Below are positions 46,908 to 64,000 of a DNA stretch of 64,000 nt, one piece after another. Both the position numbers and the translations under genes were made by a program. Under the pieces are notes generated by a model, which had not been told where the DNA came from, did no database searches, and saw only the letters and a program-made list of their open reading frames with translations. The stretch comes from Clostridia bacterium (lineage in GTDB: Bacteria > Bacillota > Clostridia > Oscillospirales > Acutalibacteraceae), in contig JAFWAC010000032.1 in assembly GCA_017507805.1 (NCBI GenBank), positions 1-64,000 of the forward strand, written 5' to 3'. Positions within the stretch are counted from its first letter, which is position 1; each line of letters starts with the position of its first letter.

Positions 46908-49900
46908 ATGAAGCAAACAATCAAAAAATTATTGACTTTAGCATTAAGCCTTGCAATCGTGCTTTCGGCAATGGTGTTTGCAGTACCGGCTCAGGCTATA
47001 AGCCAAGACACAGCCACAGATTTTATGGCAGGTAATTACGGTATATTCATGCATTATTTACCCTCCGGTGATGCCAAGACTGACCTCGAAGCCTGGAATG
47101 AGCAGGTTGCAAGCTTTAATGTGGATACCGTGGCAATGCAGGCACACGAGGCAGGCGCCAAATGGGTTACAATTACATTAACCCAATCCAACGGTTTTTA
47201 TTGTATACCTATGGATGACGAAGCTATTGTGGAAGCCTTTGGCGGCAACTATGGTGTAGACGCAGAAAACGATTTGGTATTAAAACTCTATGAAGCACTT
47301 TCGGAATACGGTATTAAGCTTATGCTTTATTGGATACCAGGTGCACCTTCAGGCGAGGATGAGGTCGCTGTCTCTATTGCAACAAGCCTTGGCGCTACCG
47401 AAAAAGCCTCTGACGGTAACTATGTACTTAACGATACAACTGTTGAAAAAATGAGCACTGTTATGGAGGTTGTTTCAAGACGTTACGGCGATATGGTTGC
47501 CGGCTGGTGGATAGATTCCTGCTACGAAAGAGTAGGCTTTAGTGAGGATTATGCCAATCTGGAGGCTGCTGCCTTGCGTGCGGGTAACCCTGATGCAGTT
47601 ATTGCATTTAACAGCGGTATAAGCGGTGACAAGCCCGAGGATGTTCGTTATGCTTGTGAAAGCTATGCTGCCGGTGAAATCTGCAATTACGGCAATCTTG
47701 ACACAGTTAGCATTTATGATTATTCTGCAACAGGCCGTTGGACACCTAAGGGCTACCAAAAACATTATCTTACCTTCTTGGGCGAGAATTGGGGAGACTC
47801 CAATGCGGAGCGCTATGACACAAACGAGCTTGTTGCTCATGTGACCGAAAATCTTTTAAAGAAGGGCTGTGCACTTTCTTTGGATGTAGGTTGCGGTACT
47901 AACGGTACTTTTGACCCCGAACAGCTTAATCAGGTTGTTGCAATTAACACTGCTATGAACAGCAACCCTGAGCTTGGATTTGATTTTGAAAACGGTCAGA
48001 ACTTAATGGGCGTTGTTTCGAATGTTTATGAAGGTAAAGACCATTATTCCAATGACAGCGCTTATGTTCAGCTTAGCACCGAGGACGAAGCACTTAACGG
48101 AAAAGCTTCTCTAAAGATATTACCCTCGGAAGGCAACAGCCGTACAGATATCCTGGTTGCACATTCTTACCTTACAGAGGGTGCGCCTAACCGCTTGAAT
48201 ATTAAGGGTAACACTGATTTTTCTAAGTCTGATTTTACCAATCTTTCGGGTATTATGATGCGCGTTAAGATTGAAAACGATACTGCTACCTCAAATCATT
48301 CGATTGGTTTTTATTTATCTCAAACAGGCTTATCGCATCTAACTGTATTAGGTAATAAAATGGTGCTTTACAATGCAGACGGCAGCAAATTTAATGTTTA
48401 TGATAAGGCATTGCCTGCCGGCTTTGACGGTTTCGTATTTATTCCTTTCAAAAATGCTCACAGCATTCATGAGTTTGAGCCGGGTAAGGCATATTCCAAT
48501 TATACAAACAACCCAGATGTTATGGTTGATTTTGCAAAGGATTATAAGCTGGACATCCGTCTCAATTCTTCAAATTGGAACGGTGCTACCGTTTTAATTG
48601 ACGATGTTAATTACTATTACGGTGAGAACGATGCGGATGCATGGAATACAATGCGTGCTTTAGGTTATGATATTACTCAGGCAGAGCAACCCGAAGTTTA
48701 TTCATTCCCGCTTAACGGTGAAAATCTCTGGAAGCCGATTCCTTCTACAATGTTAATTGCCAAAACCGTTACAACCGGTGGTGTTGCAGGTTGGCCTAAA
48801 TATAATAATCTGCCTTCCATCCTAACAAACGATCCTGATGAGGTTTTGAATGGCAATGTTTCTATGAAAATTTCTGTTGATATCAATAGCTTTAATTGGA
48901 CGGGTCTCAACTCTATTGCTGCTTTAAAGGTCACTACCGATCCTTTTACCGTTGCCGGTGTAGAAGCTCTTTCGACAGAAAAAATTAAATCAGCTGCTTC
49001 TAATAAATATGCTTATTTAAAGCTTAGGATTAAAATTCCTGCTACTAATAGTGCATTATCTTTTTATCCCATTATTGAACAAAACGGAAATCGTTTTGTT
49101 ATTGAAGAAAATATATTGGCATATAATGCGGACGGTTCTGTGAATTCAAGTGTAATCCTTAATTCCGGCGGTCCTGTTAGCTTGCCTTCCGGCTTTGACG
49201 GTTATTTGTATGCACCTATTTACAGTATTAAAGCTGCGGATTTCAATGATTATACATATACTCCCACCGGAAGTCCTGTATATCAGTCAGATGCTACTGC
49301 ACCTGACCTCGATCAGAATTTTGAGCTTCGTTTCCAATTTTCTACATCAAGCACAACAGGAGATCTTAATGTAGCAAACATCTATTTTGATGATATTGAT
49401 GTGGTTTACGGTACAGGTACTGATTTGCCGTATAACTTTGACGATTTCTCAAAAACAACTCCTACCGTATACGGTCAAGTTACTAAAACATGGGGCTATC
49501 CTCCAATAAACAATATTAGCTATCTGACAAGTGAAAATGCTCTTAACGGTCAAGCTTCTATTAAGGTTGATATTCAAAATCTTTATAAATCTGAAAATTC
49601 ATCCTACTATTACTATAATGCCGTTAAATTTGCAAATGTACCTGCTGTTACAGATGATGGTATAGCAGGCGTTATGTATAGATTGAAGCTTGAAAATGAT
49701 ACTAATACCGAAACACACCGCATGTATTTAGTTTTGACACAATCAGAAATGGCTGAAACCTGTGTTGGCGGTAATGCTATAAAGCTTTATGATGCAGAGG
49801 GCAACGCCCTTGTTAAAGGCACTGATTATACAACCGATGTCCTTGGTGTTGATATTCCTATCGGCTTTGACGGTTTTGTATTTGTTCCTTATAAGAATTT

Positions 49901-51005
49901 CTATAACAGAACACAAAACGGAAAGCCTGTAGTTGATATTTCTGCCGAACACAATTTAGAGCTTTGGTTCTGGGGTACTAACACTGCAACAGATGGTGTT
50001 TATAAATGGCAGAATGTTGATGCGTTGATTGATGATGTCAGCTATTATTCTGTTGCTGATGCAGATGCCGGTCTTACCGATGTTGACGTCTGGAACGCAA
50101 TGAAAAGCTTAGGCTATGATATTATGAAGGCTCAACAGCCTGCTTCCTATTCCATTCCTCTCGATTTCGAGGGCTTTGAAGCTCCGTTTAATAAGGTTAC
50201 CTCTTGGTATAGCAAGGGAACAGACGGTAATTACGGTCAGTATTATACAAAATATGATTTTGTTGGCGGAGAATCTGCGCTTTCCGGTAAGGCTTCCTTG
50301 AAGGTAACTGCCGGCGCAAGTGATGCTTATAATGCAGAAGGCAGAAACTTTATAAGAGCTGAAACCACACAGGCTGTATTTAACGGTATTCCTTCGCTTG
50401 ACAAAGAAACGCTTTCACTTGCCAACACGAATTTTGCTTATATTACTATGCGTGTTAAGGTGCCCTTTGGCGGAGACGGCTATAGCTTCCAGCTTTTCTT
50501 AAATCAGACAGGTGTTACTCAAAACGGTATGTGTGCTACACACGGCTATACTGCCGAGGGTGTTTATACTCAGTTCGTTACCGATGACGGTGTGACAACA
50601 TTGCCCTCAGGCTTTGACGGTACTATCTATATTCCGGTAGCAAACGCAACCGCAAGAACTGAGCTTACCGATGAAAGCGGTAATAAATATCGTCCTACCT
50701 ATAGAAAGAGCGCTGAGTATATGGTTGACCTTACACAGCAATTTAAGCTTTCTATAAATCTTCAGGATACCGATTGGGAAGGAAAGTCACTTATCATAGA
50801 TGATATAACTCTTGAAATTGACGGTGTAATGGGCGATATCAACGGTGACGGTTCAGCAAACGGTGCTGATTTGGTAATTGTTTCAAATCATATTTTAGGT
50901 ATTGACAGAAGCTACGGTGTTGCTTGTGATATTACAGGCGAGGGTGCTGTTAATATTATTGATCTTATCCGTTTGAAGAAAATTATTGCGAACATTGCCT
51001 CATAA
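46908..51005 (+). CDS. Secreted modular protein: GH29-like domain, four repeats, dockerin
   Basis: 1365 residues. Sec signal ending PAQA (about 30). Residues about 35-350 resemble a GH29 alpha-L-fucosidase barrel ('YGIFMHYLPSGD', 'AHEAGAKWVTITLTQSNGFY', 'GWWIDSCYE' with a candidate nucleophile Asp), but the family's K-H-H-D-G-F motif reads TQSNGF, so activity may differ. Four beta-rich repeats of about 240 residues (from about 355, 598, 841, 1081) share 'LNGKASLK', 'GFDGFVFIPF' and 'LIDDVNYY'. Residues about 1309-1365 are a type I dockerin with two calcium loops (DINGDGSANGAD, DITGEGAVNIID), so it should dock on a cohesin scaffold. RBS AAAGGAAG. Confidence 0.8.
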   Translation: MKQTIKKLLTLALSLAIVLSAMVFAVPAQAISQDTATDFMAGNYGIFMHYLPSGDAKTDLEAWNEQVASFNVDTVAMQAHEAGAKWVTITLTQSNGFYCIPMDDEAIVEAFGGNYGVDAENDLVLKLYEALSEYGIKLMLYWIPGAPSGEDEVAVSIATSLGATEKASDGNYVLNDTTVEKMSTVMEVVSRRYGDMVAGWWIDSCYERVGFSEDYANLEAAALRAGNPDAVIAFNSGISGDKPEDVRYACESYAAGEICNYGNLDTVSIYDYSATGRWTPKGYQKHYLTFLGENWGDSNAERYDTNELVAHVTENLLKKGCALSLDVGCGTNGTFDPEQLNQVVAINTAMNSNPELGFDFENGQNLMGVVSNVYEGKDHYSNDSAYVQLSTEDEALNGKASLKILPSEGNSRTDILVAHSYLTEGAPNRLNIKGNTDFSKSDFTNLSGIMMRVKIENDTATSNHSIGFYLSQTGLSHLTVLGNKMVLYNADGSKFNVYDKALPAGFDGFVFIPFKNAHSIHEFEPGKAYSNYTNNPDVMVDFAKDYKLDIRLNSSNWNGATVLIDDVNYYYGENDADAWNTMRALGYDITQAEQPEVYSFPLNGENLWKPIPSTMLIAKTVTTGGVAGWPKYNNLPSILTNDPDEVLNGNVSMKISVDINSFNWTGLNSIAALKVTTDPFTVAGVEALSTEKIKSAASNKYAYLKLRIKIPATNSALSFYPIIEQNGNRFVIEENILAYNADGSVNSSVILNSGGPVSLPSGFDGYLYAPIYSIKAADFNDYTYTPTGSPVYQSDATAPDLDQNFELRFQFSTSSTTGDLNVANIYFDDIDVVYGTGTDLPYNFDDFSKTTPTVYGQVTKTWGYPPINNISYLTSENALNGQASIKVDIQNLYKSENSSYYYYNAVKFANVPAVTDDGIAGVMYRLKLENDTNTETHRMYLVLTQSEMAETCVGGNAIKLYDAEGNALVKGTDYTTDVLGVDIPIGFDGFVFVPYKNFYNRTQNGKPVVDISAEHNLELWFWGTNTATDGVYKWQNVDALIDDVSYYSVADADAGLTDVDVWNAMKSLGYDIMKAQQPASYSIPLDFEGFEAPFNKVTSWYSKGTDGNYGQYYTKYDFVGGESALSGKASLKVTAGASDAYNAEGRNFIRAETTQAVFNGIPSLDKETLSLANTNFAYITMRVKVPFGGDGYSFQLFLNQTGVTQNGMCATHGYTAEGVYTQFVTDDGVTTLPSGFDGTIYIPVANATARTELTDESGNKYRPTYRKSAEYMVDLTQQFKLSINLQDTDWEGKSLIIDDITLEIDGVMGDINGDGSANGADLVIVSNHILGIDRSYGVACDITGEGAVNIIDLIRLKKIIANIAS
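47970..50830 (+). repeat. Four internal protein repeats of about 240 residues
   Basis: Units begin near residues 355, 598, 841 and 1081 of the GH29-like protein. Each holds an 'ALNGKASLKI'-type strand, a 'LPSGFDGFVFIPF'-type strand and a closing 'LIDDVNYY' strand; three end with a helix of 'AWNTMRALGYDI' type. They look like carbohydrate-binding beta-sandwiches and recur in the gene at 62397. Confidence 0.75.
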
Positions 51006-51021
51006 TTTTAATTGACTGATA

Positions 51022-51055
51022 GTGTAGGGATCGGTGGAAACACCGTTCCCTACAC
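51022..51055. repeat. Intergenic palindrome, REP-like
   Basis: GTGTAGGGATCGGTG (51022-51036) pairs with CACCGTTCCCTACAC (51041-51055), one mismatch, with a GAAA loop. No T run follows, so a simple terminator is unlikely; similar TGTAGGG palindromes are scattered in related gut clostridia. It could also be an mRNA 3' stabiliser. Confidence 0.6.
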
Positions 51056-51177
51056 GCGCTGAATTATGGGGGATTACGATTTCAGTATTTAATTAAAAAA
51101 ATAAAATTATACAAGAGTGTTATCTTGTGTTACTTTATTTTTTTAATCAATGTATTTTGATTTTTTCGGAGGCTGTT

Positions 51178-54003
51178 ATGAAAAAATATATTAAAGCTTT
51201 TTTGTGCTTGGTTTTATCTGCCGGTATTGTTGTTGGGCAGACATTTAATGCATCTGCTCAGATAATAAGTGTTGAAATCAGCCAAAAAGAGGAGTATACG
51301 GCATACACTGTATATTCTGAAAAGGCAGTAGAAAACAATTCGGGTAAGGGTATTTCTCTCACGGCCGAACAGCTTGCCGAAAAATCGGACGGGGTTGAAA
51401 TTCTTGAAAATTATAAGGATTTGAACGGCAAATCAATAAATACACCGGAGGGCAGCACTGTCAGCTGGAAGGCTGATGTGACAGAGGGTTGGTACACAAT
51501 GAGAATTACCTACTATCTGTCGGAAAGCCGTTCTAATTATGCCCAAAGAAAAATTTTAATAAATGGTGAAGTTCCTTTTGAGGAAGCCGCAAATATCAAC
51601 CTTTACTGCGCTTTTATCGATGAAAAAGGAATAATTACCGACTATTACGGTAACGATATTCGCTCAACTCAGGTTATTAGCCCAATGTGGCTGACAACCG
51701 ATATTTACGACAAGGTACAATACAGAACTACACCGTTGAAATTTTATTTAAAGAATGGCGATCTTGTAACTCTTGATGCCGTTACTGAGGATTTGATTAT
51801 TAGTACCGTTGAGCTTTTACCATACTGTGAGCTTAAAACCTACAGTGAGGTATCTGCTGAGTATGAGCAATCGGGTTATTTGGAAGCTAAAAATGTTTGT
51901 GATATTTATCAGGCAGAAGCTCCTAATTATAAAACCGATCCCACCGTTTTACCCGCAACCGATAACAATGCCTCCACAGTACCTCAGGACAGCTATCTTA
52001 TAAAGCTTAACAAAATAAGTGGCGGTAATTGGAAAAGCTCGGGACAAAAGCTTTGCTGGAAAATTTATGTTCCAAAAGCCGGTCTTTACAATATCACGCT
52101 TAAGACAAAGCAAAGCTCTGACAGAGGTACATATTCTACAAGACGCTTGTATATCAACGGCGAAGTGCCTTTCAGTGAGGCTAACTGTATAAAATTCCTT
52201 TATTCGAGGAATTGGGAAAATATCACCTTGGGCGCTGACGGAAATCCTTGGCTTTTCTACCTGAAGGAAGGGGAAAACACCATTGAGCTTGAGGCAACCT
52301 TGGGTGATATGGGTGTTGTTTTGCAGGAAGCAAGCGATATTCTTGAGGAGCTTAATAAAATATACCGTGAGCTTCTTGTGGTTACAGGCTCCACACCTGA
52401 CAAATACCGCAATTATAACCTTGATAAGCTTTTACCCGATACCTTGAGCAATATCGCAGTTCAAAAAGACCGTCTTAACAATGTTTTAAATGCCATTTAT
52501 GAAATAACAGGCAAAAAAGGCAGCAATCTTTCGATTTTCAGTACCATTATCAATCAGCTTGATGAATTTTGTAAAGACGATGAAAAAATTCCTACCGGTT
52601 TTGAGTATTATAAGACCAACATCGGTTCCTTCGGAACATGGATTACAAGTGCTCTGTCACAGCCCTTGGACTTGGATTATATTGTTGTAAGCAGTCCTGA
52701 AAAAGAGCTTCCGAAGGCACAGGTAAATGTCTTTAAAAAATTCACAAGCTGGCTCACATCTTTTATTGCCTCCTTTGTTGTTGATTATGACAGTATAGGT
52801 AATATGACCGAAAACACAAAAAAGCCTATCACTGTCTGGATGACCTCCGGCAGAGATCAAATGCAAATATTAAAGGTGCTTATTCAAAATTCATTTATAC
52901 AGCAAACCGGTATTAATGTTAAGCTTGAAAATGTTGAAGCCGGTGCTATTTTAAAGGCTATTGCTGCGAATAACGGTCCTGATGTGCTTATTGGCGCAAG
53001 TGTTTCTGACCCTGTAAACTATGCGCTTAGAAATGCGGCATATAATCTTAATAAGTTTGAGGATATTGATGAGGTTACTGCACGCTTCTACGATGAAAAT
53101 TTAGTTCCTTTAAGCTTTGGCGGTGGCTTGTTTGCTTTACCCGAAACGCTCACCTTTGACATTATGTTTTACAGAACTGATATAATGAACGAGCTTGGAA
53201 TTTCTATTCCTGAAACATGGGATGATGTGACCGAGGTAATATCAATTCTGCAAAAGAATAATATGACCTTTGGTTTACCGGTGGCAGATATTGTCGGTAC
53301 ATACGCAACCTTTCTTTATCAGCACGGTGGAGAGCTTTATAACGAGGACGGAAGCCTTTGCCTGCTTACAGAGCTTGTGAATACAGAAGCCTTCAATATG
53401 CTTACAAACTATTTTGATAATTATTCCTTGGAGCTTTCATATAATCTTGTAAACCGCTTCAGAACGGGTGAAATCCCGATAGCCATAGCTGATATCGCAA
53501 CCTATAACAATCTTATGGTTTCAGCGCCTGAAATTGAGGGCTTGTGGGGAATAGCTCTGTTGCCCGGAATAAAACAGGATGACGGAAGTATCAACCGCAC
53601 AGGATATGTAACCACAACAAGCAGTATGGTGCTTAACGGTACGGATATGCCCAACGAAGCCTATGAGTTCATAAAATGGTGGACAACTGACGAGATTCAG
53701 TCAGAATTCGGTACAGAGCTTGAAAGCATATTAGGTCCGTCATCAAGATACCTTACCGCGAACAAAAAGGCTTTTGAAGCACTTCCTTGGAATGAGGCAG
53801 AGCTTCAGGTTATCGACACACAGCTTTCTGCTGCTAAGGCTGTTCCACAGGTGCCCGGAAGCTATTACATTGCCCGTCATCTCAACAACGCTTTCCGTGC
53901 TATTGTAATTTCGGGCGAGGATTTAAGAGACACTCTTTCAAAATATAATGAAACAATCAATGCAGAGCTAAAAACCAAACGCCAAGAGTTTGATTTGGAT
54001 TAA
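51178..54003 (+). CDS. ABC sugar-binding protein fused to two carbohydrate-binding-like modules
   Basis: 941 residues from ATG 51178 (CGGAGG upstream). A Sec signal ends near NASAQ (about 30), without a lipobox Cys. Two related beta modules follow (about 40-220 and 235-400), each with a 'RRLYINGEVPFSEA' or 'RKILINGEVPFEEA' strand as in CBM6/35-type folds. A helical linker (about 400-545) leads to a family 1 solute-binding domain (about 547-941: 'FALPETLTFDIMFYRTDIMN', 'PETWDDVTEVI', 'AYEFIKWWTTDEIQSEFG'). It should deliver a glycan fragment to the permeases encoded next. Most binding proteins are about 400 residues and lipid anchored. Confidence 0.82.
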   Translation: MKKYIKAFLCLVLSAGIVVGQTFNASAQIISVEISQKEEYTAYTVYSEKAVENNSGKGISLTAEQLAEKSDGVEILENYKDLNGKSINTPEGSTVSWKADVTEGWYTMRITYYLSESRSNYAQRKILINGEVPFEEAANINLYCAFIDEKGIITDYYGNDIRSTQVISPMWLTTDIYDKVQYRTTPLKFYLKNGDLVTLDAVTEDLIISTVELLPYCELKTYSEVSAEYEQSGYLEAKNVCDIYQAEAPNYKTDPTVLPATDNNASTVPQDSYLIKLNKISGGNWKSSGQKLCWKIYVPKAGLYNITLKTKQSSDRGTYSTRRLYINGEVPFSEANCIKFLYSRNWENITLGADGNPWLFYLKEGENTIELEATLGDMGVVLQEASDILEELNKIYRELLVVTGSTPDKYRNYNLDKLLPDTLSNIAVQKDRLNNVLNAIYEITGKKGSNLSIFSTIINQLDEFCKDDEKIPTGFEYYKTNIGSFGTWITSALSQPLDLDYIVVSSPEKELPKAQVNVFKKFTSWLTSFIASFVVDYDSIGNMTENTKKPITVWMTSGRDQMQILKVLIQNSFIQQTGINVKLENVEAGAILKAIAANNGPDVLIGASVSDPVNYALRNAAYNLNKFEDIDEVTARFYDENLVPLSFGGGLFALPETLTFDIMFYRTDIMNELGISIPETWDDVTEVISILQKNNMTFGLPVADIVGTYATFLYQHGGELYNEDGSLCLLTELVNTEAFNMLTNYFDNYSLELSYNLVNRFRTGEIPIAIADIATYNNLMVSAPEIEGLWGIALLPGIKQDDGSINRTGYVTTTSSMVLNGTDMPNEAYEFIKWWTTDEIQSEFGTELESILGPSSRYLTANKKAFEALPWNEAELQVIDTQLSAAKAVPQVPGSYYIARHLNNAFRAIVISGEDLRDTLSKYNETINAELKTKRQEFDLD

Positions 54004-54021
54004 AGGAGGAGGCACAATATT

Positions 54022-54954
54022 ATGAACGGTAATTTAAAGGCCTTGTCCTTTAAGGAAAAAATGAAATATCAGTTAGACCTTGCCAAAAAGAATTATGATT
54101 GCTATTTGTTTTTGGCGCCATTTGGATTGTTATTTATTGCATTTGTGGTAATGCCGGTTTTTATTTCGATATTCTTTGGGTTTACGGATTATAACCTTCT
54201 TGAAGCGCCGGGATTTGTCGGTCTGCAAAACTATCAGAAGCTTTTGGTAAACGATGAAATATTTACACAGGCTTTTCGTAACACGATGATTATTGCTGTT
54301 GTTGTGGGACCGTTGGGATATTTTGCTTCTCTTATGATTGCGTGGCAGATAAACGAGCTCAATAATGTTCTGCGTGCAATAATGGTAACTATTATGTATG
54401 CTCCGTCTATTTCCGGCGGTGCGATTGTAATCTGGCAATATATTTTCAGCAACGATTCCTACGGCTATATAAACAGCTTTTTAATGAGCTGGGGCTTTAT
54501 TCAGGAGCCGATACAATTTTTATCCGATACCAAGTATATGCTTACGATTGTTATTATTGTAATGGTATGGATGAGCTTGGGCGCCGGATTTCTTTCCTTT
54601 GTTGCCGGTCTTAAAACTGTGGATAAAAGCCAATATGAAGCAGGTTATATTGACGGTATAAACAGTCGCTGGCAAGAGCTTTGGTTTATAACCCTTCCGT
54701 CAATGAAACCGCAATTGATGTTCGGTGCGGTTATGAGCATTACAAATGCTTTTTCTGCCGGTGCTGTTTCTACCCAGATGTTCGGTTCACCAAGCACCGA
54801 TTATGCGGCACATACAATTATTAATCACTTGGAAGACTACGGCGGTGTTCGTTTCGAGCTTGGCTATGCATGCACAATAGCTACCGTGTTATTTGTTATG
54901 ATGATTGCTATTAACGAAATCATACAAAGGCTCTTAAATAAGGTGGGCAGTTAA
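54022..54954 (+). CDS. Sugar ABC transporter permease (first pair, MalF/UgpA type)
   Basis: 310 residues, six membrane segments. The inner loop that docks the ATPase is 'EAGYIDGINSRWQELWFITLP' in two parts (EAGYIDGINSR and WQELWFITLP), matching EAA-x3-G. AAAGGAGGAGG precedes the ATG. Pairs with the next gene, which starts 2 bp after its stop. Confidence 0.92.
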   Translation: MNGNLKALSFKEKMKYQLDLAKKNYDCYLFLAPFGLLFIAFVVMPVFISIFFGFTDYNLLEAPGFVGLQNYQKLLVNDEIFTQAFRNTMIIAVVVGPLGYFASLMIAWQINELNNVLRAIMVTIMYAPSISGGAIVIWQYIFSNDSYGYINSFLMSWGFIQEPIQFLSDTKYMLTIVIIVMVWMSLGAGFLSFVAGLKTVDKSQYEAGYIDGINSRWQELWFITLPSMKPQLMFGAVMSITNAFSAGAVSTQMFGSPSTDYAAHTIINHLEDYGGVRFELGYACTIATVLFVMMIAINEIIQRLLNKVGS

Positions 54955-54956
54955 TA

Positions 54957-55841
54957 ATGGCTAAAAATAAAGAAAAAAAGTTAAAGCGGATATCCCGTGC
55001 CGGTCTTGCAAGGTCGGTAGGAGGCAGTGTATTTAATTTTTTGGTACTCTGCGTTATCGCGGCTTTTATGGTACTGCCGCTATTATATGTAGTCAGTAAT
55101 GCTTTCAAGCCGTTGGATGAAATCTTTGTATATCCGCCGAGACTTTATGTAATTAATCCTACAATTGATAATTTCACCAATCTGGCATCACTTATGTCAT
55201 CATCTTGGATACCTTTTTCAAGATATATCTTTAACTCGGTATTCATTACCGCTGTTGCAACCTTTTTGCAGATAATATTTGCTTCTATGGCGGCTTATGT
55301 GCTCGAAAAGCGTGAGTTTCCGGGCAGAAAAATATTCTTTAAGCTTGTAGTCACCTCGCTTATGTTCAGCACTGCGGTTACTGCTATACCAAACTACATA
55401 ATTATGAACAGCTTAGGTATAGTTAATACATATTTCGCACTAATTTTACCGGCCGCGGCGTCCTCAATGGGGCTTTATCTCATGAAGCAGTTTATGACAA
55501 CAAGTATTCCTAATGCCGTATTGGAGGCTGCCCGTGTTGACGGCGCAAATGAATTTCTGATATTTTGGCGGATAGTTATGCCACTTGTAAAGCCTGCTTG
55601 GCTTACACTTATAATTTTTGCCTTTCAATCTATTTGGGCAACAACAGGTAACGGTCTTATTTACAGTGAAACCATGAAGCCTTTGAATTATGCGTTAAAT
55701 CAGGTTGTAACCGGAGGTATTTCGCGCACAGGCTCAGCAGCTGCTGTAGCATTTATAATGCTTTTACCGCCTTTGACCGTATTTATAATTTCACAAAGTA
55801 ATATTCTCAATACCATGGCATCGTCCGGTATTAAGGAATAA
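54957..55841 (+). CDS. Sugar ABC transporter permease (first pair, MalG/UgpE type)
   Basis: 294 residues, six membrane segments. EAA loop 'EAARVDGANEFLIFWRIVMP'. It forms a heterodimeric channel with the upstream permease. No ATPase follows, so a multi-use MsmK/UgpC-type ATPase from elsewhere is expected. Confidence 0.92.
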   Translation: MAKNKEKKLKRISRAGLARSVGGSVFNFLVLCVIAAFMVLPLLYVVSNAFKPLDEIFVYPPRLYVINPTIDNFTNLASLMSSSWIPFSRYIFNSVFITAVATFLQIIFASMAAYVLEKREFPGRKIFFKLVVTSLMFSTAVTAIPNYIIMNSLGIVNTYFALILPAAASSMGLYLMKQFMTTSIPNAVLEAARVDGANEFLIFWRIVMPLVKPAWLTLIIFAFQSIWATTGNGLIYSETMKPLNYALNQVVTGGISRTGSAAAVAFIMLLPPLTVFIISQSNILNTMASSGIKE

Positions 55842-55860
55842 TCGTAGGGAGGATTAAGGC

Positions 55861-57936
55861 TTGAAAAAAACAGTTCGTATTTTGGGTGTGTTGCTTGCCG
55901 TTATTTGCTTGATTTCTGCTTTTACATACACAGCAACGGCTAAAACCCCGAATAACAGCTTTACCTACGATTTGGAAAACAATGCGATTTCTGCACCCCA
56001 AGCGGCAGAATTTTGCCTTAATATAACCGGCGAGGAGTTAGGGATTGGCAGCTTTTCCGAGCCGACAGATGTTTTCAGCGACACGCAGGGCAGACTTTAT
56101 ATTGTTGATAAAGGTAATTCCCGTATTGTTATAACCGATGTTCACGGCAGACTTCTTAAGATTCTCGATTCCTTCAATAATAACGGCACAACCGATAAGC
56201 TTAATTTACCCGAGGGTATTACAGTTACCGAAGCAGGGGATATCTATATTTGTGATACAGGGAATTTCCGTTTAGTTCACTTAAATCCCGATTATAGCCT
56301 TAAAAGGATAATTAAAGCTCCTACTGCTGCGGTTTTAGGTGAGGAATTTGAATTTACCCCTGTTAAAATTGCGGTCGATAAGCTTAACCGTATTTATGTT
56401 GTTTCCAGAAATTTCAATTCCGGTATTATAGAGCTTAATAAGGAAGGCGTTTTTAATGAAATATACGGCTCTATTAAGGTTACCTACAGTGTAACGGATA
56501 TATTGTGGAATATGGTTTCAACCAAAGCACAGAAGGAACGCTCGATTGCTTTGGTGCCTAACGAATATAGCAGTGTTTGTGTTGATGAAAATAATTTTGT
56601 TTATGCCTGCTCTGCATATTACGATTCTACTTCGAGTTCTTCTGGCTCTGTCAAAAAGCTTAACGCACTTGGCAATAATGTTCTTGACGGTGTTCCCGAT
56701 GAATCAATAAACCGTAATGTAAAAGGTACATATATCGGTCCTGAAACCTATGTTGATATATGCTCGATGGGTAACGAAATTTACGGTTTGCTTGATAACA
56801 CCCGCGGCAGAATATTTGTTTACAATAACGATGGCGATATGCTCTTTGAATTTGGCGGTAAGGGTATTTATAATACAACCTTCGGTACGGTGGCTGCCAT
56901 CAGCTACTCGAACGGATATTTTTACATTGCCGACTCCCGAAACGATTTTATTTCTGTGTTTGCTCTTACCGATTATGCAAAGCTGTTTTTAAGTGCTGCA
57001 GAATACCATAGCATTGGAGATTATGAAGCTGAAAATTCAGTTTGGGAAGAAATTTATAAGCTAAACAATAACAGTATTTGTGCTATCAGGAATTTCGGCA
57101 GGGTAAATTACCGCGAAGGTGATTATATCGAAGCAATGAAATATTTTAAGCTTGCGAATGACCGCAAAGCTTATTCGGAAGCCTTTGAAAAACAGAGAAA
57201 AATCGTTATAAACGATAATTTTACCCTCATATTCATATCATCAATCGTTATTGTGATTTTGATTATATGCTTTATGGTTTATAAGTCAAAGCATAAAAAA
57301 GAATTTGAAAATAAACAATCCTACAGGGCAACTCTCAGTTATTCAACAAAGGTCATTTTCAGACCGATAAGCGGATTTTGGGATATGAAACGGGAGCGTT
57401 ACGGTAGCACCGCCGCCGCTGTAACAATACTTTCGGTCGTAACCCTGATGTATGCACTTTACAGTAGTCTGGAAGGCTTCATATTTACAAGCGGTACAAA
57501 ATCCGCAAGCTTTGTTATGGGTTTAATTACTGTTCTGTTGCCGTTTTTCCTTTTTATAATGTGCAATTGGTGTGTATCTAACCTTATGGACGGAGAGGGA
57601 AGCTTTAAATATATTTTTATGGGCACTTCTTACGCCCTGACACCTATGATTTTTATATTGCCGGTGTTACTTGTAATGTCAAGGGTTATGACTATGGCTG
57701 AGGACAGTGTATATACCCTGGTTATCGGTATAATGCTTTTATGGGTTGCATATTTAATAATTTGCTCTAATATGCAAATCCATTCTTATTCAATGAGCAA
57801 AACCGTTTTGGTTTTGGTGATAACCTTACTTGTTATGGTTATAGTGATTTTCCTTGCAATGCTTATTTTTGCACTCGCACAAAAGGTAGTGGGAGTTGCA
57901 GTTGATATGTATAACGAGCTGTATCTGCGGTTTTAG
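55861..57936 (+). CDS. NHL-propeller/TPR/Yip1-domain membrane protein
   Basis: 691 residues, start TTG 55861 after GGGAGG. Signal-like N-terminus, then an extracytoplasmic beta-propeller of NHL-type repeats (about 40-365: 'GRLYIVDKGNSRIVITD', 'GDIYICDTGNFRLVHLN', 'GYFYIADSRNDFISVF'). A short TPR-like helical stretch (about 375-440, 'YREGDYIEAMKYFKLAND') leads to a membrane segment (about 454-474) and a C-terminal Yip1-like domain with about five segments. The function is unknown. Its place between the two permease pairs suggests a scaffold or sensor for the transporter. Confidence 0.78.
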   Translation: MKKTVRILGVLLAVICLISAFTYTATAKTPNNSFTYDLENNAISAPQAAEFCLNITGEELGIGSFSEPTDVFSDTQGRLYIVDKGNSRIVITDVHGRLLKILDSFNNNGTTDKLNLPEGITVTEAGDIYICDTGNFRLVHLNPDYSLKRIIKAPTAAVLGEEFEFTPVKIAVDKLNRIYVVSRNFNSGIIELNKEGVFNEIYGSIKVTYSVTDILWNMVSTKAQKERSIALVPNEYSSVCVDENNFVYACSAYYDSTSSSSGSVKKLNALGNNVLDGVPDESINRNVKGTYIGPETYVDICSMGNEIYGLLDNTRGRIFVYNNDGDMLFEFGGKGIYNTTFGTVAAISYSNGYFYIADSRNDFISVFALTDYAKLFLSAAEYHSIGDYEAENSVWEEIYKLNNNSICAIRNFGRVNYREGDYIEAMKYFKLANDRKAYSEAFEKQRKIVINDNFTLIFISSIVIVILIICFMVYKSKHKKEFENKQSYRATLSYSTKVIFRPISGFWDMKRERYGSTAAAVTILSVVTLMYALYSSLEGFIFTSGTKSASFVMGLITVLLPFFLFIMCNWCVSNLMDGEGSFKYIFMGTSYALTPMIFILPVLLVMSRVMTMAEDSVYTLVIGIMLLWVAYLIICSNMQIHSYSMSKTVLVLVITLLVMVIVIFLAMLIFALAQKVVGVAVDMYNELYLRF

Positions 57937-57971
57937 TTTGCAGACTGATTTTACGGGAGGTTTTTAAAAGG

Positions 57972-60515
57972 ATGAAAAAAAGAATATTAAGTCTTATATT
58001 CATTTTTGCCCTGTGCTTATCAGGCTGCGGCGGCAATGCTTCGGTTGCTTCACGAGACGAAAACTGTGTCTATGTTGAAAACGGTACTGCAAAAAACGAT
58101 ATAACCGCAACCGAAATGACGGTTGTGGCTGAAAATAACAGATTGAGGCTTAGCATAAATTATAATACTACCGATATTGAAGTTTTGGATAAAACTTCGG
58201 GACATTCCTGGAGAAGTAATGCTGTGAACCATAAAAGTGCAGCCATCGGTAATGTTTTGGAAATTACCTATTTGAATTCATCGGGTAAGGTGGCTACCAT
58301 GAATTCTATGGACGATAGCATTAAGAAAGGTCAGTTTACCGTATCTGAAATTGAAAACGGTGTATATGTAAAGTATTCGTTCGGTGATATTATTTCCAAT
58401 ATAATCTATCCAACATATATTTCTGCCGAACGGTTTAATGAATTTCTTGAAAAAATGTCTAAACGACAGCAAGCGATAGTTGGTCCCCTATATATTCATT
58501 TAGCAGATGGAATTTACAGTGACGAAATGTATGCCGATTTTCTTGAGCAGTATCCTTATGCGAAGGGAAAGGATGCTTATGTTTTAAGAGAAGGTGAGCT
58601 TTTATCCAATGTTAAGAAGCAGATAACCACCGCATTTTCGGACGCAGGATACACAGAGGAGGATTTAAAAAAGGATTCCGCAGAATTCGGTGTTGACTCA
58701 ACAGTCGGCACTACCACAAACATACAGTTTAATGTCGGTGTTGAATACACCTTGAATAACGAAGGACTCTTAGTGCGGTGTCCGAAAGAGGATATTTTCT
58801 GGACCGACTCTGTCAACGGCATTGAAAAGCTTTCTTTGTTGCCGTATTTCGGGGTACCATCGCTCGGTGACGAAGGTTATTTCCTGATTCCTGACGGCTC
58901 AGGCTCAATTATGAGCTTTTATAACGGAACAGAAGCTGCCGGTCAAACTCTTACAATGTCGGTATATGGCGAAAATCTTTCTGTAAATGCGAATGAGAAA
59001 ATTTATAACAGCGAGCAGGTTATTTTGCCGATTTACGGTATAAAAACCAATAACAGCGCAGTATTGGCAATAATTGAAAACGGTGATGCCATTTCGGATA
59101 TTAATGCAGTTTCCGGTACAGACTCATTAGCCGCGCGTATATGGTCAAGCTTTAATTTACTTGATACTCAGTTAGTTTATGCAAAATCCCTTTCTACCAA
59201 GAATACAAATATTGCAAATGCATCATATACGATGGAACAGGCAACTGCTTACGAGGGTGATATTGCTGTAAGATATAATTTCTTATCCGGCGATAACGCA
59301 AATTATACCGGTATGGCAAAGGTATATTCTAATTACCTTTTCGGTGATAAAAAGACTAAGTCTAATCAAATTCCGCTTTATCTTGATGTAATCCATGCTG
59401 TGGATTATACCGAGGTCGCTGTTGGATTTTCCCGTGATGTTGTAAGTACAATCACAACCTTTGAACAGACAGAAAAAATTTCTGATGCGTTGAAAAATGC
59501 CGGCATTGAAAGACAGAATATTATTTTGTCCGGTTGGCAAAAAAACGGTTTGAGAACAGGTTATGCCGATAATATTAAAATACTTTCCGATGCCGGCGGA
59601 AAAAAAGGATTACTTTCTTTAATCGAAAATTTGAATAACGGTAATATAAATGTGTTTCCTGACCTTGATGTTCAGCTAACATATAAATCTGCACTCGGCA
59701 GTAATATAAAGAAATCTTTAGTTTCCAGAAGTCTTGTGCAACAGATTGCAAAGCTCAATTCGTTTAATTTATCAACATTCCAAAAGAAGGATTATATTGC
59801 TTATGTGATGACTCCTGAATATACTGCCGATAATATAAAGAAAATTCCGGAATTACTTTCAGATTATGGCTTATCATCTGTTTCGTTAAGATATTTGGGT
59901 AAATACAACATCCCTGATTATGATGACGGTGATGTTGTGGACCGTCAAGAAGCCTCTGTGATTATTGCCAAGGCTTTGAATGAAAGCAAAGAAAAATATT
60001 CAAGTATTCTAACCCAAACGGGCAACGCCTATACGGCACCTTTTATGAGCGATATAATTAAGTTGCCGCTTTATAGCAAACGGTATAACAACACCGTGGA
60101 AATCCCCTTTACCGCAATGGTTTACAACGGTCATGTCAATTTTTCCGGAAAGGCGCTTAATCTTAACGGCGGAACTCAAAAAGACCTTTTAAAACTTATT
60201 GAATCGAATGCAGGATTGCTTTACTCTGTATCTTGGGAAAGAGACAGCAATCTTACAGACAGTGAATTTCATGAATATTATTCCATTTGCTTTGAGGATT
60301 TAAAGGATGTAATAATACAAAATTATGAATATGTTTCCAATGCATTGTCTGATGTTTACGGTCGGTCTGTGGCTAACCACGAGATTTTACAAACCAATGT
60401 TGTCAAGGTAACTTATGAAAACGGAGTATATTTTATAATTAATTATAATGAATATGCCGTTAATGTACTTGGTACTGAGGTTGCGGCAAACAGCTATGTA
60501 AAGGGAGGTAATTAA
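57972..60515 (+). CDS. DUF5696 lipoprotein
   Basis: 847 residues. Lipobox LSGC with Cys19. The body matches what I know as DUF5696: N-terminal beta region ('LRLSINYNTTDIEVLDKTSG', 'HSWRSN'), then 'GYFLIPDGSGSIMSFYNG', and a long C-terminal alpha/beta region that may be a TIM barrel ('LYLDVIHAVDYTE', 'ILSGWQKNGLRTG'). The PDGSG motif recalls glycosidase N-terminal sandwiches of the GH101/GH31 kind, so a surface glycosidase or glycan-binding protein is possible. RBS GGGAGG. It directly precedes the second permease pair, where a binding protein would be expected. Confidence 0.75.
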   Translation: MKKRILSLIFIFALCLSGCGGNASVASRDENCVYVENGTAKNDITATEMTVVAENNRLRLSINYNTTDIEVLDKTSGHSWRSNAVNHKSAAIGNVLEITYLNSSGKVATMNSMDDSIKKGQFTVSEIENGVYVKYSFGDIISNIIYPTYISAERFNEFLEKMSKRQQAIVGPLYIHLADGIYSDEMYADFLEQYPYAKGKDAYVLREGELLSNVKKQITTAFSDAGYTEEDLKKDSAEFGVDSTVGTTTNIQFNVGVEYTLNNEGLLVRCPKEDIFWTDSVNGIEKLSLLPYFGVPSLGDEGYFLIPDGSGSIMSFYNGTEAAGQTLTMSVYGENLSVNANEKIYNSEQVILPIYGIKTNNSAVLAIIENGDAISDINAVSGTDSLAARIWSSFNLLDTQLVYAKSLSTKNTNIANASYTMEQATAYEGDIAVRYNFLSGDNANYTGMAKVYSNYLFGDKKTKSNQIPLYLDVIHAVDYTEVAVGFSRDVVSTITTFEQTEKISDALKNAGIERQNIILSGWQKNGLRTGYADNIKILSDAGGKKGLLSLIENLNNGNINVFPDLDVQLTYKSALGSNIKKSLVSRSLVQQIAKLNSFNLSTFQKKDYIAYVMTPEYTADNIKKIPELLSDYGLSSVSLRYLGKYNIPDYDDGDVVDRQEASVIIAKALNESKEKYSSILTQTGNAYTAPFMSDIIKLPLYSKRYNNTVEIPFTAMVYNGHVNFSGKALNLNGGTQKDLLKLIESNAGLLYSVSWERDSNLTDSEFHEYYSICFEDLKDVIIQNYEYVSNALSDVYGRSVANHEILQTNVVKVTYENGVYFIINYNEYAVNVLGTEVAANSYVKGGN

Positions 60516-60517
60516 GG

Positions 60518-61423
60518 GTGAAAAACAAAAAAACGCTTTCCTTTGAAAGAAGACAGGCGAGAAGCGGTTACATATTTTGCCTCCCGTTTATTATAGGTTT
60601 TATTCTGTTTGTGGGCTTCCCACTTATTAAGGTGATTGGATTTAGCTTTCATAATCTATTTGTGGGTACTGTTACTTATGATACAGAATTTGTTGGATTA
60701 GAGCATTATAACAGAATTTTGTTTGTTGATCCTGATTTCAGAAAAACGGTTGTAAGCTCGATAGGCGAGATGTTATTTAATGTTCCTGTTGTAGTAATGT
60801 TCTCGTTTTTTATAGCGAGCTTGCTTAATCAAAGATTTATTGGCAGAACGGTATTCAGAGCAATACTTTTCTTGCCGGTGGTTTTTGCTTCAGGATTAGT
60901 TACCTCGATTACAAGCGGTGACTTTATCAGCAATAATATGCAGAATATCGGCAGCCTTTCGGGTGAGTCGAATGCGATGTTTGCCGGCACCTTTACAGAC
61001 ATATTACTTGAGATGGATATCGGTAACGGAGTTGTTGAGTTTATAGAGGATTTGGTTTCCAGAATTGAGGACATTACTACTATGGCGGCGGTGCCCTCGG
61101 TTATATTTCTTTCGGGTATGCAATCAATTTCTCCAAGCGTTTTTGAAGCGTCTTATATTGAAGGTGCTTCCGGTTGGGACGTGTTTTGGAAAATAACCTT
61201 TCCCATGGTAAGCCCTTTGGTGCTTGTAAATATTGTTTATTGTATCGTAGACTCGTTCACAAGCGCTACAAATACCGCAATTACATCTATACATAATGTA
61301 TTGTTTGTTAATGCAAAGTATGGATTAGGCTCAGCAATGGCTATTTTTTATCTTGCAATTGTCGGTGTCTTTATTGCGGTAGTGTTTGTTTTGATAAGGA
61401 GGTTGGTGTACTATTATGACTAA
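60518..61423 (+). CDS. Sugar ABC transporter permease (second pair, UgpA type)
   Basis: 301 residues, start GTG 60518 after GGGAGG. Six membrane segments and the EAA loop 'EASYIEGASGWDVFWKITFP'. An extra outer stretch of about 50 residues ('ILLEMDIGNGVVEFIEDLVS') lies between segments 3 and 4 and is unusual for the family; it could contact the DUF5696 or propeller protein. Overlaps the next permease by 8 bp. Confidence 0.9.
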   Translation: MKNKKTLSFERRQARSGYIFCLPFIIGFILFVGFPLIKVIGFSFHNLFVGTVTYDTEFVGLEHYNRILFVDPDFRKTVVSSIGEMLFNVPVVVMFSFFIASLLNQRFIGRTVFRAILFLPVVFASGLVTSITSGDFISNNMQNIGSLSGESNAMFAGTFTDILLEMDIGNGVVEFIEDLVSRIEDITTMAAVPSVIFLSGMQSISPSVFEASYIEGASGWDVFWKITFPMVSPLVLVNIVYCIVDSFTSATNTAITSIHNVLFVNAKYGLGSAMAIFYLAIVGVFIAVVFVLIRRLVYYYD

Positions 61424-62369
61424 CACGCAATCTGCCTATAAAGCTTATAATCCTAAGATAGTAAAAACAAAGAAAATTGCAGGTAAAAGTGTTATTTCGA
61501 TACTGAGATTTTTCTTTCTTTTTGGTATCAGCTTCGTAATAATTTATCCTATTTTGTCAATGATTTGCGGCTCTTTTATGTCGGTAGACGATTTGGTTGA
61601 TATTACGGTTAAATATTTCCCCAAAAATTTCACATTTGATAATTATGTAAAAGCGGCAAAAGCGCTGAATTTTCCTGACACATTAATTACATCGGTTATA
61701 ATTTTTGGGATAACCTCATTGCTTCAGGCTTTTTCATGTACCCTTGTGGGTTATGGGCTGGCAAGATTTAAATTCAAGCTTAACGGATTGATTTTTATCT
61801 GTGTAATAATTCAGTTGCTTATTCCGCCTGATACTATAATGCTTACAAGATACATAGAGTTTCGTTATTTTGATTTATTCGGTTTGGGCAATCTATTCGG
61901 TTTAGATTCTATAAATCTGACCTCAACGGCATTACCGTTATATGTTTTGGGTATAACCGGAACGGGACTTAAAAACGGTCTTTTTATATTTATGCTGAGA
62001 CAGTATTTTAAGGGCTTGCCTAAATCGCTTGAAGAAGCTGCGTATGTTGACGGTTGTAATCCGTTCAGAGCATTTGTTTCGATTATGTTACCGTGTGCAA
62101 AAACTATGATGGTGACCATATTCCTGTTTTCCTTTGTTTGGCTTTGGACTGATATGACCGTTGCTCCGACACTTACAACAAGTGATATTTTGGTCAATAT
62201 GACATATATGATAAAATCAACGATGGAGGATAATTCGGGCGGTTTGGTGACCTCTCTGCTTAAAAATTCCGGTGTTGTACTTATAATACTTCCTGTTGTG
62301 ATTGTCTATTTAGTGTGTCAAAAGGCTTTCATTCAAGGTATCGAAAGCTCCGGTATAACCGGAACTTAA
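61416..62369 (+). CDS. Sugar ABC transporter permease (second pair, UgpE type)
   Basis: 317 residues, six membrane segments, EAA loop 'EAAYVDGCNPFRAFVSIMLP'. Partner of the upstream permease. Like the first pair, it has no ATPase gene beside it. Confidence 0.9.
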   Translation: MTNTQSAYKAYNPKIVKTKKIAGKSVISILRFFFLFGISFVIIYPILSMICGSFMSVDDLVDITVKYFPKNFTFDNYVKAAKALNFPDTLITSVIIFGITSLLQAFSCTLVGYGLARFKFKLNGLIFICVIIQLLIPPDTIMLTRYIEFRYFDLFGLGNLFGLDSINLTSTALPLYVLGITGTGLKNGLFIFMLRQYFKGLPKSLEEAAYVDGCNPFRAFVSIMLPCAKTMMVTIFLFSFVWLWTDMTVAPTLTTSDILVNMTYMIKSTMEDNSGGLVTSLLKNSGVVLIILPVVIVYLVCQKAFIQGIESSGITGT

Positions 62370-62396
62370 AATTAATAAGAAAGGTTTGTGAGAAAA

Positions 62397-64000
62397 GTGA
62401 AAATGAATGTGACGCTAAAAAAGCTTATGAGCTGTCCAAAAACGTTACTTGCTGTTTTGTGCGCTTTTTGCGTTTTTTTGAGCTCCGCAATTTATTCTGT
62501 AATAGCTATATCAGCACAGAATGTTGTTCAGCCTGAAAACTATTCACTACCGCTTACATTTGATGAACAGTATAATCCGTTTGTTCAGATTGATAATGTA
62601 TACAGCAATACCGAGCATTGGACTAATAACGGAATAGAGCTTGTCGGCGGTGAAGAAGCACTGAACGGTGAATATTCTTTAAAAATTGAAAATATCCGTT
62701 CAGGTAATACAAGAACTGAGATAAGCTGGGCTAAAATTGAGGGTAACCCCGATTTCAGTACAAATGATTTCACTGCCGTCACAGGTATTATGCTTCGTGT
62801 AAAAATAGAAAACGATGGAAACACAAGCCATAAATTCAGATTGACATTGTCACAATCCGGACTTTCCGGATACACTTGTATGGCAAGGTTGGGTACGCTC
62901 TATAATGCAGACGGTAGCTTCCGTGGCACAATATCAAGTGCAGATGCCGGTCTTGCCGGTGTATTGCCTGCCGGTTTTGACGGCTTTATATTCCTGCCCT
63001 TTGCAGAAGCACGCGGTCAGCATACATGCATTCAAAATGCTTACGATAATTACTCAACAGCTCCGCAACATATGGTTGATCTTTCAGAAAATTATAGAAT
63101 GACTTTTATTATGCTTGAGAACAACTGGGCGGGCTGTGATGTTTATATTGATGATATTTCATATTATTCGGGAACCGAACAAACAGAGCATCTTGATTTA
63201 CTGAAAGCAAAGGGTTATAATATTACTGCTGTTATTCAGCCTGAAAAATACACCTTACCCCTTTCTTTTGAAGATTTATACAATCCTTTTGTTTCGGTTG
63301 ACAATGTATATGACAGCGCCGACCATTGGGTGAATTCGGGTGTCGGTCTTATAAATAACGACAGTGTTTTAAACGGTGAATATTCTCTCAAAATCGATGC
63401 TATCAGAAACGGAAACTCGAGAACTGAGGTTACTTGGGCGAAAATGAAGGGAAATCCCGATTTCAGCAAGACCGATTTTTCAAAGGTCAGCGGTATAATG
63501 CTGCGTCTTAAGATTACAGGCAGCAAAAGTACAGCAGCTTTACCTTTCGCAATCAGGTTAAGGCAGGGAAGTCTGCAAGCCACTTGCCTCGGCAGAGCTG
63601 CAAAGCTTTATGACCTTGACGGTAATGTTGTTGCACATTCCAACAGGGCGCTTTTGGTTAATCTACCGGCTGATTTTGACGGATATGTATTTTTCCCGTT
63701 TAGCGAAGCTCAGAGTATGAATGTTACAGTTCAGGGCTACTATGATAAATATGAAACATATCCGCAGAGCATGGTTGACCTTTCGCAGGATTTCCAGATG
63801 TATTTTTATATGGAAACTAACAGTTGGAGTGGCTGTGAGGTTTATATTGATGATATGGATTACTATAGCGGTAACACTCATATTGACCATATCAATAAGC
63901 TTTTAGAGTTGGGATATGCGCCGACAGCTGTTCCACAGCCCGAAAAATATACATTGCCTCTTACTTTTGAGGAAAAATATAATCCTTTCGTTCAGGTCGA
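62397..64000 (+). CDS. Secreted repeat protein, cut by the window end
   Basis: The frame is open from the start to the right edge (534 residues seen), so the C-terminus is missing. Starts possible are GTG 62388, GTG 62397 and ATG 62403; 62397 gives the best distance from AAGAAAGG. A Sec signal ends near 'AISAQ' (about 45). From there beta-rich repeats of 236 and 233 residues begin at QPENYSLPLTFDEQYNPF (62529), QPEKYTLPLSFEDLYNPF (63237) and QPEKYTLPLTFEEKYNPF (63936). They share 'LNGEYSLKI', 'GFDGFIFLPF' and 'VYIDDISYY' with the repeats of the GH29-like protein. No catalytic domain is visible yet. Confidence 0.78.
   Translation, partial: MKMNVTLKKLMSCPKTLLAVLCAFCVFLSSAIYSVIAISAQNVVQPENYSLPLTFDEQYNPFVQIDNVYSNTEHWTNNGIELVGGEEALNGEYSLKIENIRSGNTRTEISWAKIEGNPDFSTNDFTAVTGIMLRVKIENDGNTSHKFRLTLSQSGLSGYTCMARLGTLYNADGSFRGTISSADAGLAGVLPAGFDGFIFLPFAEARGQHTCIQNAYDNYSTAPQHMVDLSENYRMTFIMLENNWAGCDVYIDDISYYSGTEQTEHLDLLKAKGYNITAVIQPEKYTLPLSFEDLYNPFVSVDNVYDSADHWVNSGVGLINNDSVLNGEYSLKIDAIRNGNSRTEVTWAKMKGNPDFSKTDFSKVSGIMLRLKITGSKSTAALPFAIRLRQGSLQATCLGRAAKLYDLDGNVVAHSNRALLVNLPADFDGYVFFPFSEAQSMNVTVQGYYDKYETYPQSMVDLSQDFQMYFYMETNSWSGCEVYIDDMDYYSGNTHIDHINKLLELGYAPTAVPQPEKYTLPLTFEEKYNPFVQV
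62529..63998 (+). repeat. Tandem protein repeats of about 235 residues
   Basis: Two full units and the start of a third (62529, 63237, 63936; periods 708 and 699 bp). Strong similarity between units, including QPE-x-Y-x-LPL, EY/SLKI and YIDD-x-x-YYSG, indicates recent duplication. Confidence 0.85.

Follow-up and report, generated by a model that had tools for sequence, protein, structure and literature searches.

A recurrent gene cassette with two permease pairs, an NHL-Yip1 protein and a DUF5696 protein in Clostridia: a candidate glycan importer of the CUT1 type

In the usual description of glycan uptake by Gram-positive bacteria of gut, rumen and soil, a single binding protein works with one pair of permeases and an ATPase that is shared. 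In the Bacteroidota, SusCD loci repeat a conserved transport core within a genome, with different enzymes at each copy. Here we analyse a gene island in a stretch of 64,000 nucleotides from a Clostridia bacterium (contig JAFWAC010000032.1, assembly GCA_017507805.1), hereafter called the window. The island encodes two permease pairs, a large binding protein (SBP1), an NHL-Yip1 membrane protein and a DUF5696 protein, and is one copy of a gene set that recurs in its own genome and in others. As a transporter the set seems to be a variant of the CUT1 ATP-binding cassette (ABC) importers; as a gene set it seems to be undescribed.

The closest described systems are the CUT1 importers with a shared ATPase. 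MsmX of Bacillus subtilis serves several CUT1 importers in this way (PMC5730181, PMC7658222), and in Anaerocellum bescii MsmK is the distant multitask ATPase of Athe_0595-0598, a CUT1 importer with two binding proteins (PMC12838199), according to the portions of these papers that were available. The cassette resembles them in its MalF/MalG-type permeases, its oligosaccharide-binding proteins and the lack of an ATPase gene in the locus, a candidate multitask ATPase being encoded elsewhere. It differs in keeping as one set two permease pairs, an NHL-Yip1 protein, a protein with the fold of glycoside hydrolase (GH) family 129 and an SBP1 of ~950 residues to which β-sandwich and helical domains have been added. 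The second comparison is with YknWXYZ of Bacillus, in which the Yip1-family protein YknW modulates the assembly of an ABC exporter (PMC4887032, in the part available). Here, too, a Yip1-family accessory accompanies an ABC transporter, and YknX sits on an uncleaved N-terminal anchor, as SBP1 may do. However, YknWXYZ combines a MacB-type exporter with a membrane-fusion protein, and the available part of that paper does not mention an NHL part of YknW. Finally, NagBb and DagB, as described in the available parts of PMC5698469 and PMC8106489, share with DUF5696 the succession of β-sandwich, TIM barrel and C-terminal β domain, whereas DUF5696 is membrane-anchored, stands among permeases and mostly has no acids at the mapped catalytic positions.

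Translations and Pfam place all the genes that an earlier note on this DNA had listed on the forward strand, in the order given there. SBP1 (51178..54003, Pfam SBP_bac_1) is followed by the MalF-type permease P1A (54022..54954), the MalG-type permease P1B (54957..55841), the NHL-Yip1 protein (55861..57936), the DUF5696 protein (57972..60515), which has a lipoprotein-like start (LSGC) and a GH101/GH129-type fold, and the second pair, P2A (MalF type, 60518..61423) and P2B (MalG type, 61416..62369). A repeat protein of 1742 residues then starts at 62388 and runs through the end of the window at 64000 to G000:C22:67616, where G000 is the window's own genome (2.34 Mb, 87.6% complete) and C22 the window's contig. 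The spacing is as tight as the note had held, with gaps of 18, 2, 19, 35, 2, −8 and 18 bases from SBP1 to the repeat protein, that is, between −8 and 35. Pfam recognises BPD_transp_1 in each of the four permeases, DUF5696 in the protein of that name, and NHL and Yip1 in their common protein; the TPR part that the note had placed between these two is TPR-like by eye only and has no Pfam match at E <= 0.001. Among the ten proteins scanned, no NCBIfam family was above its cut-off.

G000 contains 13 DUF5696 genes of full length, as well as a partial relative. NHL-Yip1 matches adjoin all 13, and a BLAST search of all open frames finds SBP1, P1A, P1B, NHL(-Yip1), DUF5696, P2A and P2B in every one of the 13 neighbourhoods, in that order in 11. 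The remaining two are shuffled, with the P2 pair upstream of SBP1 in one (L012) and P1A downstream of P2B in the other (L019), and both retain every part. The protein distance matrices of the seven proteins correlate across the 13 copies (r 0.30–0.75; Mantel p <= 0.012 for all 21 pairs, 2000 permutations), and the copies have therefore been inherited as units. Of the seven proteins, P1A is the most similar between copies (mean identity 47%) and DUF5696 the least (23%).

The same association was found in 398 genomes sampled from the phylum, among them that of the window. The best three (DUF5696), five (P1A) or two (NHL-Yip1) candidates per genome were scored, and absence is therefore slightly uncertain. 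DUF5696 exceeds the family cut-off in 39 genomes and is full-length (>400 bits) in 37, all of which also have NHL-Yip1 and P1A (>230 bits, the next score being 201). Overall, NHL-Yip1 is present in 38 genomes, the extra one (in G243) being a fragment, and P1A in 44. Co-occurrence with DUF5696 has hypergeometric p values of 1.9e-51 for NHL-Yip1 and 1.9e-45 for P1A, with related genomes counted as independent. Seven genomes have P1A only: in G080, G104 and G154 it is on short contigs, and the remaining four, of family f18, have a divergent form. In the f18 form of G007 the P1A-P1B pair is followed by two MalK-type ATPase genes (Pfam), and genes of the same size follow in the other three; near these loci (L198-L201, of G127, G054, G007 and G093) neither NHL nor full DUF5696 was found. 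As a side observation, the SBP1-like N-terminal part is a separate protein of 377–390 residues there.

Outside G000, 55 places with DUF5696 above 400 bits were fetched, at most three per genome. NHL-DUF5696-P2A-P2B is contiguous in 51 of these, and the other four (L081, L083, L108, L114) are cut by contig ends; 30 loci have the SBP1-P1A-P1B module directly upstream, and six have it downstream. A scan anchored on P1A gave at least 586 relatives, from which the best 80 named loci were kept, a choice that leans toward close relatives of the window's P1A. By title they are mostly Clostridia, with Paenibacillus, Treponema, Acholeplasmataceae and Halanaerobiales besides, the names of metagenome-assembled genomes being possibly wrong. 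All seven parts are present in 65 of the 80, counting low-scoring matches as members, and all 65 have the order of the window; in the other 15 the last part found is <=310 bases from the end of the locus. Several small genomes are multicopy: G040 and G062 have 11 DUF5696 matches each and G082 has 22, and of nine genomes counted fully four have at least 11, fragments included throughout. The earlier note would have given up its proposal had the genes seldom occurred together elsewhere; 37 of 37 phylum genomes and 65 of 80 named loci show the opposite. A chance juxtaposition of the island genes was considered as well, and copy number, co-occurrence and gene order rule it out.

Our reading, to which we give slightly better than even chances, is that of a conserved glycan-import cassette, represented here by one of its copies, in which two CUT1-type ABC importers would have a Yip1-anchored scaffold and one glycan handler in common and would draw on a shared ATPase. 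The types of permease, binding protein and ATPase are well supported by anatomy. Oligosaccharides would be released by extracellular, partly cellulosome-borne enzymes, and SBP1 would capture and load them by means of its extra sugar-binding-like domains. At the membrane, DUF5696 would hold or order the glycan, in most copies probably leaving it unhydrolysed, and would hand products over both to SBP1/P1 and to a second, small binding protein (SBP2) with the P2 pair. In the NHL-Yip1 protein, Yip1 would sit in the membrane and NHL outside it, as a docking surface that links the surface proteins to the permeases. Both channels would be powered by the single MalK/MsmX-type ATPase of the genome, and duplication and diversification would have affected the cassette as a whole, with separate cargo enzymes at each copy.

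A bolder form of this proposal, which we advance only tentatively, is an import machine of a hitherto undescribed kind, a single double-channel complex. Besides the four permeases it would contain the NHL-Yip1 scaffold, a glycan handler whose GH129 fold is catalytically dead, and the two binding proteins. It would split a complex glycan between two pores driven by one shared ATPase, and its amplification in Firmicutes, and in some Spirochaetes, would have provided a modular alternative to the SusCD systems. Like the SusCD loci, the cassette is a repeated transport core with varying enzymes; unlike them, it works, to judge from its parts, by ABC import and not through a TonB-dependent channel with SusD. 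No SusC or SusD was seen among the products scanned, a scan that was not a dedicated search for them.

The permeases have what a CUT1 importer requires. MalF/MalG-type pairs with BPD_transp_1 occur twice in the cassette, and all four families keep the EAA loop that contacts the ATPase: its D/E, G and P are present in 49/49 aligned P1A, 49/49 P1B and 66/66 P2A sequences, and in P2B in 65/65 for D/E and G and 63/65 for P. The nearest NCBIfam models (UgpA/UgpE, MalG, GlcT/GlcU) all score far below their cut-offs. As the earlier note had said, the cassette itself encodes no ATPase; a single MalK-type ATPase, which has OB and TOBE domains, was found in the 87.6% complete genome, alone on contig C15. 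On a plasmid of Paenibacillus cellulosilyticus, ugpC lies directly ahead of the cassette. That the cassette instead exports or assembles a surface glycan is an idea for which the exporter precedent of Yip1 speaks, and we regard it as very improbable: the permeases are of importer type with EAA loops, there are two binding proteins, MalK-type ATPases stand beside related loci and the cargo enzymes are degradative.

We now turn to the binding proteins. The most likely start of SBP1 is the ATG at 51178, preceded by GGAGG, in a frame whose longest form begins at 51127. In the protein, an N-terminal hydrophobic segment is followed by two β-sandwich domains and a helical bundle, and the oligosaccharide-binding domain is C-terminal; it supplies the extracytoplasmic oligosaccharide-binding protein of a CUT1 importer. 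Within the stretches fetched, small SBP2 genes accompany 54 of 63 complete named cassettes, 45 directly after P2B, where the window has its repeat protein, and eight directly ahead of SBP1; 43 of 61 small binding proteins of named loci carry a loose lipobox pattern. In G000, seven of the 13 cassettes have an SBP2 adjacent or nearly so; at the cassette on contig C7 one lies further along, and another is found ~5 kb ahead (L212) of cassette L009.

The window copy has an SBP2 candidate of 478 residues at G000:C22:77200-78636, 14.8 kb downstream and outside the window. An iterated profile gives it 255 bits and the starting profile of seven sequences 121 bits (E 1.3e-37), BLAST against other SBP2s gives E 8e-17 and 4e-12, and its GAGC start looks lipoprotein-like by eye. 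The earlier note had counted a single recognisable binding protein, which a profile scan of the window frames bears out for the window but which does not hold for the contig. From that count it had suggested two options, that the second channel is served by DUF5696 or that a single substrate is handled by the two channels one after the other, and this choice loses its premise with SBP2 in 54/63 complete cassettes. The note's broader suggestion of an uptake system fared better, in that a recurrent, transporter-type gene set is present, with no description in the literature searched.

Covariation between the parts was measured by partial correlations of protein distances over 43 named loci with all parts and with SBP2 behind P2B (95% ranges from 500 draws of 70% of the loci). 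The values are 0.62 for P2A-P2B, 0.41 for P1A-P1B, 0.41 for SBP1-P1B, 0.44 for DUF5696-SBP1, 0.47 for DUF5696-SBP2 and 0.35 for NHL-DUF5696, and in each case the range excludes zero. In a non-redundant set of 19 loci the first five of these remain between 0.33 and 0.64. The direct SBP2-P2 link is weak (0.13–0.15 in the 43 loci, about zero in the 19), and a simple pairing of SBP2 with P2 is therefore disfavoured. In the 43-locus set, DUF5696 is the part that covaries with both binding proteins.

Several observations weigh against a common scaffold and handler. The 19-locus set is noisy, since other links are as strong as those of DUF5696 (NHL-SBP2 0.37, NHL-P1B 0.36, NHL-P2A 0.34, P1B-SBP2 −0.39) and NHL-DUF5696 falls to 0.21; shared ancestry or a common substrate could, moreover, produce the same distance correlations. 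The window's SBP2 candidate is 14.8 kb away, and Pfam finds nothing in it even with the cut-off relaxed to E <= 1; no SBP2 was found in the fetched stretches of the own-genome cassettes L013, L014 and L016. In many relatives NHL and Yip1 are two adjacent genes. The SBP1-P1 module is missing from the fetched stretch in 19 of the 55 DUF5696 loci of other genomes, some of which are on short contigs; G062 and G040, with all candidates scored, have four and six P1A genes against their 11 DUF5696 matches each, fragments included; and one G040 locus (L208) is SBP1-P1A-P1B without the other parts. Because this module is separable, a strict one-to-one partnership of the two channels does not hold.

The same separability, together with the stand-alone cores also found, is what the main rival explanation builds on. 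It holds that these are two ordinary, independent CUT1 importers, kept in one operon since one polysaccharide gives two kinds of product, with NHL-Yip1 and DUF5696 as loosely linked accessories. It would account for the frequent second binding protein, and the A. bescii importer, in the available part of PMC12838199, is a standard CUT1 system that already combines two binding proteins with a distant shared ATPase. We consider this explanation credible enough to keep but doubtful. Against it stand the retention of all seven parts even in the two shuffled copies of G000, the joint presence of DUF5696, NHL-Yip1 and P1A in 37 of 37 genomes with full-length DUF5696, the position of NHL and DUF5696 between the permease pairs in 65 of 65 complete named loci, and a P1A-P2A partial correlation of 0.29 that persists in the non-redundant set.

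For DUF5696, the predicted overall fold is that of the GH101/GH129 glycosidases, as in GH129, with a profile match to DagB at E 3.5e-17. A role as the second binding protein was considered for it and is ruled out by this fold and by the usual presence of a true SBP2. One may ask whether the protein is instead an active, membrane-anchored GH101/GH129-type exo-α-glycosidase that trims glycans at the mouth of the channel. The fold and the partial match to DagB and NagBb favour this, and D649 (Asp in 101/117 DUF5696 proteins) and E744 (Glu in 111/117) leave some acidic pair possibly working. However, DagB E517 aligns opposite Q682 in a weak profile match, and the β4-end position is Asp in 60/117 proteins and is paired with D or E at the 682 column in just 20/117; the window copy has Y and Q. 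By profile, the catalytic half gives no more than chance matches to GH129 and does not align with it in sequence; the positions were mapped from the weak profile match and strand order. We judge an active enzyme unlikely. As the best-aligned catalytic positions mostly lack kept residues, DUF5696 would mainly be a non-catalytic glycan-handling protein. A distant relative of 617 residues is encoded on contig C7 of G000 (L022:12603-14456); it matches the GH101 Pfam model, with GH129 below cut-off, and is perhaps an active enzyme related to the family.

The NHL-Yip1 protein begins with an NHL-repeat domain, which is likely extracytoplasmic, followed by one membrane segment and the Yip1 membrane domain (PF04893, E 2.4e-12); hydropathy segments lie at residues 1-28 and 447-478, and five more within 515-683. 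Its neighbours are CUT1-type permeases, and not the MacB-type exporter and membrane-fusion protein of YknWXYZ. In some cassettes of G000 NHL and Yip1 form a single gene and in others two adjacent, sometimes overlapping, genes (L010, L012, L013, L017 and L019 versus the rest); since both forms coexist in one genome, fusion or fission seems to have happened repeatedly. Another conceivable function is that NHL-Yip1 and DUF5696 sense glycan, signalling occupancy to a regulator, and take no part in transport. Regulatory genes do stand nearby: AraC genes beside the G000 cassettes L014 and L015 (Pfam) and, by eye, beside that of the window, while the cassette on plasmid pNP243 of Butyrivibrio fibrisolvens D1 has a two-component system, histidine kinase plus response regulator, next to it. 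That plasmid carries the whole set with GH43 and two further binding proteins, and arabinoxylan-type substrates would be a guess for it. In neither of the two window proteins does Pfam (E <= 0.001) detect a signalling domain, be it kinase, sigma factor or another, and both are interleaved with permeases in all 65 complete named loci, which makes a sensor quite improbable.

Upstream of the conserved cassette, and outside it, lies a cargo enzyme, a secreted dockerin protein (46908..51005, +; Dockerin_1 E 2.6e-08) with repeated domains and a weak GH29-type fucosidase match (Alpha_L_fucos, 25.8 bits against a cut-off of 25.2). It shares tandem domains of no assigned family with the repeat protein (30% identity over 1054 aligned columns), in which a GH16 match covers residues 1489-1642. 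Beyond 64000 the contig encodes, besides this GH16-bearing repeat protein, a Pfam-confirmed GH29, a GH95, a GDSL esterase, a glucuronyl esterase and Gfo/Idh/MocA oxidoreductases, as well as two further genes that resemble the GH29-like part of the dockerin protein. Given these GH29, GH95, GH16 and esterase matches, a fucosylated, esterified plant glycan would be our guess for the substrate of the window copy. G000 as a whole has nine cohesin and 30 dockerin matches, a cellulosome-like system, and dockerin genes are near or adjoin several cassettes.

On the other side of the dockerin gene, a divergent AraC-type gene (45679..46440, −), identified by eye from its translation, is a likely local regulator, and beyond it is an α-galactosidase-like gene (43523..45652, −), read from its translation, which we take to be of the GH36 type and a likely cargo enzyme. 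A promoter-like site TTGACA-18-TACAAT with 11 of 12 consensus matches (46731..46760, +) precedes the dockerin gene, and a second, divergent one precedes the AraC-type gene. With these two sites in place, the gene run from 46908 may be one transcription unit. The region has 64 promoter-like sites where shuffles predict 49.6 (sd 7.5), which is weak evidence, and 12 terminator-like sites, not above the 13.1 expected by chance.

Two further sets of records deserve mention. Genes for several LLM-class flavin oxidoreductases, and for two small binding proteins, come after the cassette on the Paenibacillus cellulosilyticus plasmid (L217, NZ_CP054609.1 79381-105120); as that stretch has no annotated glycosidase, some copies may import something besides plain glycan. 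Two 'Bacteriophage sp.' records from human faeces, L218 (MT835587.1) and L219 (MT835600.1), each contain a complete cassette and a small binding protein, and are probably bacterial DNA deposited under a phage name.

DUF5696 is named in no paper of the literature searched, a search whose scope leaves out most subscription papers. Literature on NHL or Yip1 with transporters contains nothing on the cassette by title and opening of abstract among the matches listed. NHL, Yip1 and DUF are not mentioned in the available main text of PMC12838199, nor NHL and Yip1 in PMC8579813 on Caldicellulosiruptor, and the available part of PMC8605356 has a single passing mention of GH129.

The cassette presents a different and testable architecture for glycan uptake: it combines four permeases with two binding proteins and a Yip1-anchored NHL protein, and apparently reuses an enzyme fold without its catalytic residues. 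DUF5696 gains a structural reading and becomes a marker for predicting glycan loci, and Yip1-domain proteins, whose precedent considered here is an exporter, acquire a possible role in import. Present in many gut, rumen and soil bacteria, and often in many copies, the cassette may be a widespread, unstudied route for the use of complex sugars.

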